A stretch of 39,673 nt of DNA from the NCBI GenBank assembly GCA_903900235.1, contig CAIUMH010000137.1:1-39673 (forward strand). The letters are read 5' to 3'. Below the pieces are notes generated by a model that was not told the origin of the DNA, did no database searches, and worked only from the letters and a program-made list of their open reading frames with translations. The translations under genes were made by a program, and so were the position numbers. Below, one piece after another: positions 26,504-32,814 of the stretch. The stretch is from an uncultured Actinomycetes bacterium. GTDB taxonomy: Bacteria > Actinomycetota > Acidimicrobiia > Acidimicrobiales > RAAP-2. Position 1 is the first letter of the stretch. Every line of letters begins with the position of its first letter.

Positions 26504-28069
26504 TCAGCCGAGGGTCGCCGCCGTTCCGGTGACCCAGCCCACAGACTCATCTCGGCGCGCCTGAAGGGCGGCACGTGCCTCGTCATGGTCCACCGCCCGC
26601 AGCTCCACTGCCGAGCCCGGGCCGAGGCGGCCGAGCAGGCCGTGGTCGGCCGAGATCACCACGCCGATGATCGGATAACCCCCGAGGGTCGCCCGGTCGG
26701 GACCGAGGACGATGGGGTGGCCATCGGCGGGAAGCTGGATGGCACCGGCCACGGTGGGAAGCGAGGCCACCTCGCCATCGAGTCGCTGGAGCGAGCCCTT
26801 GTCAGGGACGAGCCGCAGGCCCACCCGGTTCGACGTGGCGCTCACCGTGGCGGTGACCATGTTGAGGGCCTCGAGGAGCAGGTGGTCATGCGGGCCGGGT
26901 AGGAATCGAAGCACCACCGGGTCAGGGTCCTCCGGGACCGCCCCTCGCATCGGGAGCACCGCTGGAACCGGACCCCCGCCAAGGACGTCGCCGGCGGCGA
27001 GGCCAGGGCCGACCCCGCAAAGCGCGTCGGTCGACATCGAGCCGAGGACGAGCGGTACGAGCGGGCCGCCGGCCACCCCGAGGTAACCCCGTGCTCCTCG
27101 GCCCACCGAGGTGGTACGCAGGACCTGGCCGGCCCCGACCGCCACCGGCACCCCTGAGGGAACATGGCGACCGTCGACGTCGAGGCCGAGGTCAACCCCA
27201 GCCACCACCGTGGACTCGAGGATGCACAGCTCGAGACCGCTGCCCGTCACCTCGATCGCCCCCGGCCCTCCACCGACCAGGCGCGCGGCCACCTCGCAGC
27301 GCTCCAGGTCTGCTGCCCCGGCAGTGGGGACTCCCAGGTGGGCCACACCACGCCGGCCATCGTCGACCAGGCTCGTGCCCGCCGGAACTGCAGTCACCTC
27401 GAGCACCGGCCTCACCCCATCGGGCGGCACCAGCCGACACCGAGGAGCAGGGATCGGACCGGGCGCATCGTCGGACACGATGACGAGACGGACCTCATCG
27501 CCGGCCGCCAGCAGGCCGGGCACCTGACGGTCGAGGTCGAAGAGTGTCGCCGAGGAGCGACCGAGCAGCCACCACCCCCCCGGAGTGGCGTGGGGATAGA
27601 TGGCCACCATCCCGGCCGCCACGGCCAACGACCCCGCCGGAACCCGTGGCCGAGGCGTGGGCCGTCTCCCGAGGTCGGCCAGCGGTCCGGCGAGGCCCGT
27701 GAGATAGCCGAATCCCGGTGAGAACCCGATCGCCGCCACCGTCAGCGTTGCCTCAAGGGCCGTCTCGAGCTCGGCTCGGCTGAGCCCCGTGACGGCGAGG
27801 ACCTCAGCGAGGTCAGGCCCGTCAAGGACGATCTTGAGCTCGTGACGGGTGGTGACTGTGGCTGGGATGTCACGTTCGAGCACCGCCGAGACGCGCGCCA
27901 CAAGATCGTCTCGAGGGTCGAGGACCATGACCGAGTCGAGGCCCGGGACAACCTCGTGGACTTCTGGCAGGGCTCCCCTGATGGCATCTGCCAGACCTGC
28001 CGACCGGCCTGTTTCCACGTGCTCGATCAGCAGGCCGAACTCGCCCAGACGGCGCACGCTGGGGTCCAT
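26504..28069 (-). CDS. pxpBC: 5-oxoprolinase subunits B and C, fused (PxpB-PxpC)
   Basis: 521 aa from an ATG sharing one base with the pxpA stop (TGATG). The N-terminal half (about 1-210) is PxpB/KipI-like, with GFSPGFGYLTGL, PRPRVPAGSLAVAAGMVAIYPHATPGGWWLLG. The C-terminal half (about 220-521) is PxpC/KipA-like, with DDGRRGVAHLGVPTAGAAD, GYLGVAGGP and RLVPDKGSLQR. With PxpA these split 5-oxo-L-proline (pyroglutamate) to glutamate using ATP. B-C fusions are known in actinobacteria. The junction (VTAVPAGTSLVDDG) is short with no frameshift. The longer upstream frame to 28165 is antisense to nothing recognisable and lies within pxpA, so it is not used. Confidence 0.93.
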   Translation of the reverse strand: MDPSVRRLGEFGLLIEHVETGRSAGLADAIRGALPEVHEVVPGLDSVMVLDPRDDLVARVSAVLERDIPATVTTRHELKIVLDGPDLAEVLAVTGLSRAELETALEATLTVAAIGFSPGFGYLTGLAGPLADLGRRPTPRPRVPAGSLAVAAGMVAIYPHATPGGWWLLGRSSATLFDLDRQVPGLLAAGDEVRLVIVSDDAPGPIPAPRCRLVPPDGVRPVLEVTAVPAGTSLVDDGRRGVAHLGVPTAGAADLERCEVAARLVGGGPGAIEVTGSGLELCILESTVVAGVDLGLDVDGRHVPSGVPVAVGAGQVLRTTSVGRGARGYLGVAGGPLVPLVLGSMSTDALCGVGPGLAAGDVLGGGPVPAVLPMRGAVPEDPDPVVLRFLPGPHDHLLLEALNMVTATVSATSNRVGLRLVPDKGSLQRLDGEVASLPTVAGAIQLPADGHPIVLGPDRATLGGYPIIGVVISADHGLLGRLGPGSAVELRAVDHDEARAALQARRDESVGWVTGTAATLG

Positions 28070-28818
28070 CAGTTCAGGGGGGCGATTTCGATGGCGGCCG
28101 CCTCGAGGGCCGCGCGCACCGCTGCGAGGATGCCGGCGGCCCCCGGAGAGTCGGAGTGCACGCACAGCGAGGCGATCCGATGGGCCACGCTGCCCACCAC
28201 CACACCTTCAGTCACGAGGCTGACGGCCTGGGCCGCAGCCGCGGCGGGGTTCTCAAGCACGGCACCCGGCTCAGTGCGAGGGACAAGACCCCCGTGGGGG
28301 TCGTAGCGACGATCGCAGAATCCTTCGGCCCTGATCGACAAGCCCAGCTCGGCACCTCGAGCCGCCGCCGGCGATCCAGCGGCCAGCACCACCTCGGTGA
28401 CCCCGATGCCCCGCAATGCGTTGAGAACCACCTCAGCGAGCGCAGGATGAGTCGAGAGGTCGTGGTAGAGCTGCCCATGGGGCTTCACGCTCGAGAGCGA
28501 CTCGCCGGCCGCCACGGCCAGGGTCTCGAGGGCAACGACCTGCGCCACCACCGAGTCAGCCACGCCGATGGGGTCGAGCCCCATCGATCGTCGACCGAAC
28601 CCTTCGCGGTCGAGATAGGAGGGATGAGCACCTATGCGCACGCCATTGCGGACACAGGCGTCAATGGCGGCGGCCATCGAGGACTCGTCACCGGCGTGAC
28701 CACCACAGGCGATGTGGGCGGTGGTCAGCAGCTCGATCAGCGGCTCGTCATGGACGTGACCCTCTGAGCCCGCACGCTCGCCGACATCGGCGGTGAGCTC
28801 GACCCGACGGGCCGTCAT
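28069..28818 (-). CDS. pxpA: 5-oxoprolinase subunit A (LamB/YcsF family)
   Basis: 249 aa. The LamB/YcsF signature is clear: HIACGGHAGDESSMAAAIDACVRNGVRIGAHPSYLDREGFGRR, SSVKPHGQLYHDLSTHPALAE and ICVHSDSP-like LCVHSDSPGA. The metal/substrate His and Asp residues of the fold (AHPSY, KPHGxLY, VHSD) are present. The N-terminus usually reads DLN.D.GE; here it is LTADVGERAGSE, slightly diverged. It starts 5 nt after the CHAP amidase stop, so the three genes probably form one operon. Confidence 0.92.
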   Translation of the reverse strand: MTARRVELTADVGERAGSEGHVHDEPLIELLTTAHIACGGHAGDESSMAAAIDACVRNGVRIGAHPSYLDREGFGRRSMGLDPIGVADSVVAQVVALETLAVAAGESLSSVKPHGQLYHDLSTHPALAEVVLNALRGIGVTEVVLAAGSPAAARGAELGLSIRAEGFCDRRYDPHGGLVPRTEPGAVLENPAAAAAQAVSLVTEGVVVGSVAHRIASLCVHSDSPGAAGILAAVRAALEAAAIEIAPLN

Positions 28819-28823
28819 CGGGC

Positions 28824-30614
28824 TCAGCGGCCCTGATCCTGCGAGTTGATCTGCCCCTGAGTCGGAGCGCCACCCGAGTGGGCCGAGGCGGCGTGCGGTC
28901 TGGCCGCACCCACGGCGACCGGCGAGCTGTAGCCGATGATGGGGAAGACGGCGCCCGAGGGCCCGGCGGGATCGAAGAAGTCGGTGGTGATGACGGCATC
29001 GCCCCAATTCCCTGACGTCATCTTGATCATGCTGCCTCGCACGGCGACCACGATCCCGACGTGGGACCCGTAGTGCTGGCTCTCGTCGCCGAATATCACC
29101 GCATCGCCGGGCTGCGGATCATTGGTGGCGCCCAACTTCCATGTCCCGTGCGCCCGGCCGTAGTCGGCGAAGGTATAGCTCCACCCGGTGAGACCACCGA
29201 TCTGGGCACCCGCTGCCTGCCATACCCAATTGGCGAAGTCCGAGCACCACGCCTCCGCCGACGTCCCCGCCACGCAGCCAGCACTCTGACCACGACCGAA
29301 GTGAGCGGTGTACGGATTGCAGTTCGAGCCCGCTGGAGTCTCGCCCACAGCGGCGGCTCGTTGATCTTGACCCTTGGCGATCGCCACGATCTGGGTGGTC
29401 AGTGACGGCGGGGGCGGAGGTGGTGGCGGAGGCGGGAGGTAGCGAGCCGCGTACACCGCCGGGGCCCCGGTCTGCTCGGCCAGGACCGGAGCCGAGGTGA
29501 TCTCGATCCCCTGACCCTGAGCCGAGACATCCGTGACGACGACGGAGCGGAAGGCTGAGGTGGAATCGGCTTGGTAGACGAGGAGATGACGATCGGTGCT
29601 TCGGCCGGTGATCAAGAGGTGGTCGCCATCGACGCGCATCGATGGGCTGTCCGCCTCGATGAGCGCGCTTTGGCTTCGAGCGGTCAGATTGACCGCGACG
29701 AAGCGGTGACTGGCGGCCTTGGGGGCTGAAATGAGGAGGAGCGACCCGTCCGGGCCGACCCCCGTGACGGCCAGGCGGCCAAAGGCGCGCACAGCGGTCG
29801 GACTCGAGCTCAACGGGCCAGAGCCGGGTACCGTCGAGAGGTCATAGGAGCTCCACACGGTCAACCGGGCATTGTCGTCAGCCACGACGAGGAGGTCTCC
29901 CGAACTCGCCCGTACCGCCACCGAGACGGTGGCGCCGTCGACCGGTGTGGCCACTGCGCTGGGCGTGCCCCGCACGTCGGGACCACCGGTGGTCTTGGTC
30001 AGGTCGCGCACCCACCAGCGAGTCGAGAGGCGTCGTCGCTCGAGGAGACCGATCAAATGGCTCGAAGACGACCGATAGAAGACATTGATGCCACCATGGG
30101 CGCCGATCACCGCCGAAGGGTTCGAGGCAATCAGTGGCGCCTTGGTGCTCTCGGTGAGGTCGGTCACCGACCAGCCCGAGGGGTCTGCGCTGCTGCGCAC
30201 CGCCACGAGGTGATCGATCGAGGTTCGACCCAGGATCTCGACCCGATTGGCGCGATCAACGAGCACCGCCACCGCGCCACGCAGCGTCGGTCCATTGGTG
30301 CTGGCGGTCAGGTCAGAGGTGACCCACTGCCCAGTGCCCTGAGGATCAGGAGATGACTCGATCAGATGGCCTTCGGCGGACACTCCGAACAAGGCGGTGG
30401 CCCCCATGATGCTCAGTGGAGTGGGGGAAGCCAGCATGGTGGCATCGACCCGGGTGCTGGTCGCCGACCACGATCCCGCTGTCGCGCTGAACTGCATGAC
30501 CCGGGACGACGTCATGGCGGCGTCGACAGGAGCAGACCCCAGCACCAAGGTGCTCGGTCCGAGCGCGAGGGCGAGACTGACCGCCACCTGCCTACGTCGT
30601 CTCCTCTGGGGCAT
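28824..30614 (-). CDS. Secreted CHAP-domain amidase with N-terminal beta-propeller-like repeats
   Basis: 596 aa from the ATG at 30614 (GAGGAG about 9 nt upstream). The N-terminus MPQRRRRRQVAVSLALALGP...VDA is a Sec signal. Residues about 45-390 carry six or seven repeats of about 50 residues with the pattern D-L-T, G-P, P-A-V, then a G/S-H-L-L turn, as in tectonin/PLL-like beta-propellers. A run of ten prolines (393-402) links to the C-terminal CHAP domain with Cys457 (WCSDFANWV), His518 (SHVGIVV) and Asn536 (SGNWGD). CHAP enzymes cut peptidoglycan as amidases or endopeptidases. The propeller may bind wall sugars (inference). Divergent from a sister protein at 30832; pxpA follows. Confidence 0.82.
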   Translation of the reverse strand: MPQRRRRRQVAVSLALALGPSTLVLGSAPVDAAMTSSRVMQFSATAGSWSATSTRVDATMLASPTPLSIMGATALFGVSAEGHLIESSPDPQGTGQWVTSDLTASTNGPTLRGAVAVLVDRANRVEILGRTSIDHLVAVRSSADPSGWSVTDLTESTKAPLIASNPSAVIGAHGGINVFYRSSSSHLIGLLERRRLSTRWWVRDLTKTTGGPDVRGTPSAVATPVDGATVSVAVRASSGDLLVVADDNARLTVWSSYDLSTVPGSGPLSSSPTAVRAFGRLAVTGVGPDGSLLLISAPKAASHRFVAVNLTARSQSALIEADSPSMRVDGDHLLITGRSTDRHLLVYQADSTSAFRSVVVTDVSAQGQGIEITSAPVLAEQTGAPAVYAARYLPPPPPPPPPPSLTTQIVAIAKGQDQRAAAVGETPAGSNCNPYTAHFGRGQSAGCVAGTSAEAWCSDFANWVWQAAGAQIGGLTGWSYTFADYGRAHGTWKLGATNDPQPGDAVIFGDESQHYGSHVGIVVAVRGSMIKMTSGNWGDAVITTDFFDPAGPSGAVFPIIGYSSPVAVGAARPHAASAHSGGAPTQGQINSQDQGR

Positions 30615-30831
30615 GAGAACTACTCCTCGTTGCTGGCGCACCCGGTCTCCCACCGGGACTGCTGCACCACGTGCCCGCCCACCTCTAAGGCTACCAGTGG
30701 GTACCGGGGCAGGGACGGCACCACTGGGGTGCCCGCACTTCTCTGATGCGGCTCGGTAGGGTGAAGGGTGCGGAGGGTGCACGCCGACGATGGGAGTGAT
30801 CGCGGCAGACCGAACGAGGATGAGGATCCAA
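30615..30831. promoter_or_regulatory. Shared divergent control region of the two propeller-repeat genes
   Basis: Candidate -10 boxes are TAGGGT (30757-30762) for the plus-strand gene and TAGCCT (about 30693 to 30688, minus strand) for the CHAP gene; neither has a strong -35. Between them lies the inverted repeat CCAGTGG (30694-30700) / CCACTGG (30721-30727). A hairpin CCCGGT-ctccc-ACCGGG (30641-30657) falls in the CHAP gene leader just before its ribosome site. A single regulator could act on both genes. Confidence 0.35.
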
Positions 30832-32814
30832 GTGGCACCTGAGACAACCATGCGACGAGGGCGGGCAGTGCTGCTTTGCGCTGCCCTACTGGCACCGATC
30901 TTGGTCGCCATTGGCTCGACCGCCCCAGCGGCCAGCGCCGCCACCACCAACGTCTTTCCGGTCGTTCAGGCCACCGCCACCGACTCACCACCGAGCGCCT
31001 GGTCCACAACAATCCGCTCAGCCGGAATCGGCCTGCGCAAGATGGCTGGACCGCTGGCGGCGACGACCACCGCCTCGGGCCGCCCTGCGGTCTTTGGGCT
31101 CTCAAGCCAGTCGAAGATCCTCGCTCTCATCGGCGATGGCATCGGCGGCCGGGCGTGGAACACCTATCCCATCTCGACGATCACCGGGACCGGTGCGGTG
31201 AATCCGGGTGTTGCCCCCCTGCTCGAACCGAATGGGAACCTCGACGCCTTCGCTGTCACCACTGCCGGACACCTCATCCACCTGTGGCTCGATGCCGGCA
31301 CCTGGTCGGGGGCCGACCTGACCGTGGCTACGTCGAGCCCCAATGTGACTGGCGCACCCACCGCCGTTCTCTCTGAGGGCCATATCGTCGTCGTCACCCG
31401 TACCGTCGGTGGTCGGGTCCTCGAGACCATCGACGACCATCTCCATGGGGGCCGATTCTCGACGTACAACCTCACGGCCCTTGCCAGCGGCCCCAAGCTG
31501 TCCACCGACCTGACCGCCCTCGACAACCCGGACGGCCATGGCCTCCTCCATCTCTACGGACTTGACCGGTCGGGTCACCTGGTCGAGTACGTCGACGACG
31601 ATGCAGCCGGCCGCTACTGGAACGCCTATGACCTCACCGCCGCGGCCGGAGCGAGCACGAGCCTCAAGGGTGACCCCACCGCGGTGGTGTGGGGAGGCCG
31701 CACCCGGATCATCGCTCTGTCGAGCGATGCCCATGCCGTCATGTACTCGGCCAACTCGGCCAGTGGCACTCGCTCATGGACCACCAAGGACCTCTCGGCT
31801 CGCACCGCTGGAACCCCCACATTGCGCAGCGCCCCCGCTGCCGCCGTGGCTGGCTCGGCGTTGCTGGTGGCCGGAACCACGCCAACCAAGCATCTCGTGA
31901 GCCTCGTCATACCCGGGCCTCAAGCAGAGCCCCAGCCCCAGGACATCTCTCAGGTCGTCCCCGGCATCCCCACCTTCACCGGCCGGGCTTCGGTCCTCGT
32001 CCACAATGGCCGATCCAGCGTCTTTGCCAGTGCGCTGAGCCTGCCGGTGGCCGGCAGCGTCGGTGTCTATGCCTATCCGAGCCCGGGACGGGCCCTCAGC
32101 GACGGCTGGCCCATCATCGGAGTCACCGGGGCACTCGGCACCTGCTCGTCGCCCTGGACCGGCCTGGGCTTCACCCACCACAACTCCAATGATGAGCAGA
32201 CCGGCTTCGCCATCCAGAACTCGGGCCGCCAGGTCCCTTGGATGTCCTACTGGACAGTCAGCGGACCGACCAACCGAGCCTGTCGGGCTCGCAAGGACCA
32301 GAGCCCAGCCGCCTTCTATCGAGTGGCCCATGCTGGAGCCGTCTGGGTGGCCCAGCAGATCGACAGTTACGTCAACGACGGTCTCGGCCTCAAGCCCTCG
32401 GCCGTGATCCTCGACGATGAGGGCTACCCGGACCTCCACTCGGGCTTCGCAAACCCCAGGCCCGCCATGGCCCCCCAGTTCGCCGCCTATGTCCAGGGAT
32501 GGGTCGACGGCCTCGCCTCGGTCGATCCAAGCCTCTCGCCCGGGGTCTACGTACCCCAGTCGGAGTACCTCGCGTTCCACATGGCACAACTGCCCATCGC
32601 GACCTACATCGCCGTGGCCTGGGCCGGGAGTACACCGCCCCACCGGCTTCCCGGTGTCGACGGGGCGAACATCAAGGGATTCATTGCTTTCTTCGTCAAC
32701 TCGAATCCCACCCAGGAGTGCGCACTGGCCCACGGCGCCGCCGCCCTGCTGAGCTCGTGGGGTGCGCCGTGGAACACCCTGCAGTTCGATGCCGGCGTGG
32801 CCTGCCGTCCGTGA
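30832..32814 (+). CDS. Secreted protein with beta-propeller-like repeats and a C-terminal TIM-barrel glycoside-hydrolase-like domain
   Basis: 660 aa from a GTG at 30832 with AGGAT about 8 nt upstream; ATGs at 30790, 30820 and 30850 are alternatives, and all keep the Sec signal MRRGRAVLLCAALLAPILVAIGS...ASA. Repeats of about 50 residues (about 45-370) end in motifs such as FSTYNLTALASGP, YWNAYDLTAAAG and SWTTKDLSARTAG, matching those of the divergent CHAP protein. From about 400 a different domain begins, with GVYAYPSPG, YWTVSGPTNRAC and AVILDDEGYPD (Asp528, Asp529, Glu530), then GVYVPQSEY and TYIAVAWAG. This strand-helix order and acidic cluster resemble GH25/DUF1906-like TIM barrels acting on peptidoglycan or glycans. 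Four Cys could make two disulfides. Confidence 0.68.
   Translation: MAPETTMRRGRAVLLCAALLAPILVAIGSTAPAASAATTNVFPVVQATATDSPPSAWSTTIRSAGIGLRKMAGPLAATTTASGRPAVFGLSSQSKILALIGDGIGGRAWNTYPISTITGTGAVNPGVAPLLEPNGNLDAFAVTTAGHLIHLWLDAGTWSGADLTVATSSPNVTGAPTAVLSEGHIVVVTRTVGGRVLETIDDHLHGGRFSTYNLTALASGPKLSTDLTALDNPDGHGLLHLYGLDRSGHLVEYVDDDAAGRYWNAYDLTAAAGASTSLKGDPTAVVWGGRTRIIALSSDAHAVMYSANSASGTRSWTTKDLSARTAGTPTLRSAPAAAVAGSALLVAGTTPTKHLVSLVIPGPQAEPQPQDISQVVPGIPTFTGRASVLVHNGRSSVFASALSLPVAGSVGVYAYPSPGRALSDGWPIIGVTGALGTCSSPWTGLGFTHHNSNDEQTGFAIQNSGRQVPWMSYWTVSGPTNRACRARKDQSPAAFYRVAHAGAVWVAQQIDSYVNDGLGLKPSAVILDDEGYPDLHSGFANPRPAMAPQFAAYVQGWVDGLASVDPSLSPGVYVPQSEYLAFHMAQLPIATYIAVAWAGSTPPHRLPGVDGANIKGFIAFFVNSNPTQECALAHGAAALLSSWGAPWNTLQFDAGVACRP

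Follow-up and report, generated by a model that had tools for sequence, protein, structure and literature searches.

A conserved divergent gene pair of Acidimicrobiales encodes a secreted CHAP protein and a secreted TIM-barrel protein that share a PLL-type propeller

We analysed a stretch of 39,673 nucleotides (the window) from an uncultured Actinomycetes bacterium. In the window, a gene for a CHAP protein on the minus strand and a gene for a TIM-barrel protein on the plus strand are divergently arranged, and each encodes a signal peptide. A preliminary description based on the sequence had recognised these two back-to-back genes, and its coordinates are right except for the start of the CHAP gene. 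The secreted CHAP protein has 596 amino acids (28824–30614, minus strand); its gene starts at 30614 (MPQRRRR...), with a GAGGAG Shine-Dalgarno sequence just upstream, and not at 30950 where the open reading frame ends. The secreted TIM-barrel protein has 674 amino acids when counted from the first ATG (30790–32814, plus strand). Its gene starts at 30790 or 30820, and an ATG further downstream (30850) has no conserved counterpart in the closest relative. This closest surveyed relative (G003, an Acidimicrobiaceae metagenome assembly, same contig as L081) encodes orthologues that are 73% identical to the CHAP protein and 76% identical to the TIM-barrel protein.

The two start codons are separated by a gap of 175 bases (30615–30789). 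Within the gap, 27 bases upstream of the CHAP start, we found an inverted repeat (CCCGGT-CTCCC-ACCGGG, 30641–30657) with perfect 6-base arms, of which neither the window nor the rest of the genome has a second copy and which is retained in G003. No sigma-70-type promoter or terminator was recognised in the gap, which says little for this lineage, and a search of the gap against Rfam gave no riboswitch or other RNA, permissive settings included. That the pair is under shared control is a possibility for which the gap gave no promoter-like pattern. Downstream of the CHAP gene and on the same strand are LamB/YcsF and carboxyltransferase-domain genes of the 5-oxoprolinase type (26504–29007, minus strand), and the predicted LamB/YcsF open reading frame overlaps the end of the CHAP gene.

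Both proteins contain repeats of about 50 residues in their N-terminal parts, an early observation that was confirmed by a repeat profile and by AlphaFold2 models. The profile detected six blades per protein, mostly 49–54 residues apart (E about 5e-55 each); three shuffles of the propeller region on the plus strand gave no blades. The models contain a confident seven-bladed propeller in both proteins, so that the N-terminal folds are alike and not unrelated. In the CHAP protein, the propeller covers residues about 46–393 (29436–30479, minus strand; confident over residues 38–392), and in the barrel protein residues about 54–419 (30949–32046, plus strand). The PLL-family lectins of Photorhabdus were top-ranked for both propellers, well above other propellers (Foldseek, VIA-align). 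When superposed on PLL4, the propeller of the CHAP protein gave a Z of 33.7 (rmsd 2.3, 296 aligned residues) and that of the barrel protein a Z of 34.5 (rmsd 2.0, 291 aligned residues). The same seven-bladed fold is found in the Photorhabdus lectins PLL, PLL2–5 and PHL, with superposition over about 290–296 residues and Z of 33–34. Furthermore, a propeller-only sequence profile recovered PLL2 (E 1.3e-16) together with seven more PLL/PHL sequences. Both propellers are thus of the PLL-lectin kind by fold and by sequence profile, PLL being one of the two types that had been suggested for a common propeller.

Fucose and O-methylated sugars are ligands of the PLL lectins, whose binding sites are located between blades (PMC6943638). 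Whereas the PLLs are free lectins, the window propellers are fused to predicted catalytic domains; the identity between the PLLs and the window propellers is about 16–23%. Between the two window propellers, identity is about 27%. Throughout the window genome (2.4 Mb, 157 contigs), the propeller was detected in the CHAP and barrel proteins only, at the threshold used. The pair points to an occurrence of PLL propellers far outside Photorhabdus.

In the CHAP protein, the propeller is followed by a ten-proline linker (residues 394–403; 29406–29435, minus strand), which is kept in G003, and by the CHAP domain (Pfam span residues 454–535; 29010–29255, minus strand). The domain matches PF05257 with an E-value of 2.7e-10 and 41 bits, compared to a Pfam cut-off of 26. 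The predicted catalytic residues are Cys457 and His518, and the third residue, Asn536, is found just past the Pfam span. Linker, amidase and the Cys, His and Asn residues agree with what had been read from the sequence before, with the refinement that relatives have either Asn or Asp: in an alignment with 12 relatives, Cys and His are invariant (columns C58 and H119) and the Asn or Asp follows an invariant glycine (G136). The CHAP part of the AlphaFold2 model has low confidence because only three sequences covered it. The PF05257 amidases and endopeptidases, which include secreted wall hydrolases and phage endolysins, share the domain match and the Cys, His and Asn residues, and the window CHAP domain also weakly matches phage tail-lysin and endolysin families. 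The CHAP protein is likely a peptidoglycan-cutting enzyme. It differs from usual CHAP enzymes by an N-terminal lectin module in place of the usual wall-binding repeats. It belongs to a subfamily of its own within its Acidimicrobiales family, and the more distant CHAP proteins of the same family form a separate clade in the tree. Another CHAP protein in G003 (L191:2129-4363) has C-terminal repeats that appear PLL-like by eye, and its domain order is reversed compared to the window protein.

In the barrel protein, the C-terminal domain (residues 424–674; 32059–32811, plus strand) is predicted to be a TIM barrel of an unnamed family. Eight strands alternate with helices in the AlphaFold2 model, in line with the TIM-barrel-like domain that had been proposed. 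The D-D-E cluster described with it turned out to be a D-x-E motif: Asp542 and Glu544 at the end of strand 4 are invariant in the alignment of 32 relatives, and the middle position is a proline in nearly all of them. No match to the barrel head was found in Pfam, NCBIfam or PDB. In the fold search with the full-length protein, the lists were filled by the propeller, and the absence of a barrel match there means nothing. A kinship of the barrel to GH25 or DUF1906 had also been put forward. The models PF08924 (DUF1906) and PF01183 (GH25) gave no match in a Pfam search of 32 barrel members, which extended to an E-value of 10 for PF08924. When profiles were compared, the barrel scored 27.0 against Rv2525c/DUF1906, and the best of 100 column shuffles reached 22.4; the HHalign probability was only 8%, and the acidic D-x-E motif and strand 5 are in register. 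The score against GH25 was 12.2, which is the shuffle level, with a GH25 alignment of only three rows. The profiles thus point weakly to DUF1906. A distant tie of the barrel to the Rv2525c group is, from these profiles, likely but not established.

We surveyed the window genome and 60 relatives for the two proteins. The barrel protein is present in 17 of the 61 genomes and the CHAP subfamily in 14, and all 14 genomes with the CHAP protein also encode the barrel protein (hypergeometric 3e-11, or 1e-7 within the family, both uncorrected for kinship). In wider samples of the order, the class and the phylum, the barrel turned up almost exclusively in a single Acidimicrobiales family; the two exceptions are from the order. 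The divergent pair that had been noted in the window is kept in nine genomes. In six of these, the CHAP and barrel genes are direct neighbours (G000, G003, G022, G035, G018 and G033), and in three an S53 protease gene lies between them (G014, G032 and G023). The two genes are about 115 kb apart in G002 and on different contigs in G011, G030, G017 and G005. In nine genomes, one of them with a different lectin described below, a convergent Lhr helicase gene follows the barrel gene as it does in the window.

An S53 gene (PF09286; sedolisins and kumamolisins) is found beside the barrel gene in most relatives, unlike in the window. To count the genes upstream of the barrel gene, we used 81 loci, that is, 80 fetched by barrel similarity and the window. 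S53 is directly upstream on the same strand in 59 loci, a divergent CHAP gene in three and neither in 11, whereas eight loci are too short; S53 is thus present in 59 of the 73 loci with enough upstream sequence. The pair represents one variant of a larger set to which the S53 protease also belongs, a point that the preliminary description had missed. The S53 proteins of the three-gene loci carry one or two weak C-terminal propeller blades, and a blade profile found none in their counterparts from the common two-gene form or in S53 proteins elsewhere in the genomes. S53 was rejected as a part of the window's own locus: the only S53 gene detected in that genome is on another contig and lacks a propeller. 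We also rejected a mobile or phage origin. A single-sequence query found no relatives in viral contigs, and no relative of the barrel was found in phage records; one distant barrel relative is on an Alicyclobacillus plasmid. The locus looks vertically inherited.

When comparing the lectin modules of the two partners, we found that the propeller can be exchanged for another lectin in both of them, a feature that had not been noticed before. A GNA-type B-lectin (PF01453) takes the place of the propeller in both partners of three genomes (G002, G018 and G033), and also in the G004 barrel protein, which is encoded at the Lhr site where the window has the propeller form. Both partners carry the propeller in ten genomes and the B-lectin in three, and no mixed pair was found among the 13 genomes in which both partners are readable. 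The window genome lacks the B-lectin. One clade of the barrel tree unites the window's pair with the B-lectin genomes (support 100/99), and one or two lectin exchanges fit the trees. Several independent exchanges were considered: a single clade is not rejected for the CHAP protein (p 0.108) and already holds, with weak support, for the barrel. We rejected the idea that the two propellers of a genome are homogenised, as the best match is normally the orthologue and not the partner, with the B-lectin pair of G002 as the exception. The matched modules rest on few events. Because of this, and because other secreted proteins of G002 contain the B-lectin as well, which occurs in at least three further proteins of that genome, the match may reflect a genome-wide lectin preference rather than joint aiming. 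It is possible, although less likely than not, that the catalytic heads (CHAP, TIM-barrel and S53) are fixed at the inherited locus and that the lectins of the partners are replaced in step, from PLL propeller to B-lectin, with the same surface still being aimed at.

Our preferred reading, to which we assign a probability of roughly 55%, is that the locus encodes secreted envelope enzymes, inherited vertically as a set, which have an exchangeable PLL-type lectin in common and are aimed at a glycan-bearing surface. Both proteins are secreted, and the propeller would dock each enzyme on a cell-surface glycan. The CHAP domain would then cleave the peptides of peptidoglycan, and the TIM-barrel domain, probably a distant relative of the glycosidase-like Rv2525c/DUF1906 group, may act, via its D-x-E pair, on the glycan or on another envelope polymer. 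Within one Acidimicrobiales family, such a set would be passed on with the chromosome, and the S53 acid protease would extend or partly replace it in many members; its catalytic heads would be kept while the lectin part of both partners changes. Lectin targeting of both enzymes is well supported, and the surface would most likely be the envelope of the producer itself. We favour the producer's own envelope over an attack on other cells because the genes are present in a single copy and at a fixed place, and because no immunity gene was recognised. Counting against the preferred reading, the barrel is without a clear family and could have a non-catalytic role, the two genes are not adjacent in G002 and are on separate contigs in G011, G030 and G017, and the matched lectins go back to few exchanges.

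It is possible, although we consider it rather improbable, that the shared modules only reflect common descent and a genome-wide preference for a lectin, and that the two enzymes work separately without joint targeting. The unlinked pair in G002, the further B-lectin proteins of that genome and the low identity between the window propellers are consistent with this explanation. However, the propeller was found in just these two proteins in the window genome, and none of the 14 surveyed genomes with the CHAP protein lacks the barrel protein.

That the released enzymes instead lyse other cells, be it for nutrients or in competition, and that the lectin recognises prey surfaces, seems unlikely to us. 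Secreted CHAP and barrel enzymes, together with the S53 protease of the relatives, would make a plausible lytic set, and the weak matches of the CHAP domain to phage lysins fit such a role. Of the sugars that PLLs bind, O-methylated ones occur on some bacteria and fungi (PMC6943638). Nevertheless, no immunity-like gene was recognised nearby, there is one copy per genome with a fixed place beside Lhr in several genera, and no relatives of the barrel were found in phage records. The proposal that the pair kills competitors found no support at this locus, which looks vertically inherited.

Least probable, and in our view doubtful, is that the barrel is no enzyme but a second binding or structural part and that the locus encodes one hydrolase and one lectin-like surface protein: no curated enzyme family matched the barrel and Rv2525c-like proteins are poorly characterised, but the D-x-E motif is invariant across the whole family, is shared by the Alicyclobacillus relative and lies at the end of strand 4, which is the position of the catalytic pair in GH25 enzymes.

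Searches of the open-access literature on DUF1906/CHAP/propeller, CHAP/lectin/beta-propeller and Acidimicrobiaceae/lectin/peptidoglycan gave no description of such a pair, in agreement with the initial remark that no such description was known. Although binding modules are common in wall hydrolases, a conserved pair of two different enzymes that have a PLL-type lectin in common and change its type jointly would offer a natural way to test how such enzymes find their target. The pair also brings to light an uncharacterised TIM-barrel family in bacteria with almost no cultured members; among the architectures that we examined, all but one join the barrel to lectin-like modules. A free-standing relative is plasmid-borne in Alicyclobacillus sp. 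ALC3, which comes from acid mine drainage (L211:3926-4648); it has the D-x-E motif, lacks a signal peptide and a propeller, and adjoins a sigma factor gene. A distant barrel domain from a different family of the order is fused to another set of repeats that appear propeller-like by eye (L185:6854-8794). Lastly, two loci (L064:10684-13980 and L065:5737-8928) contain a long insert of SC-x-S/T-x-x-C type repeats within the barrel domain.
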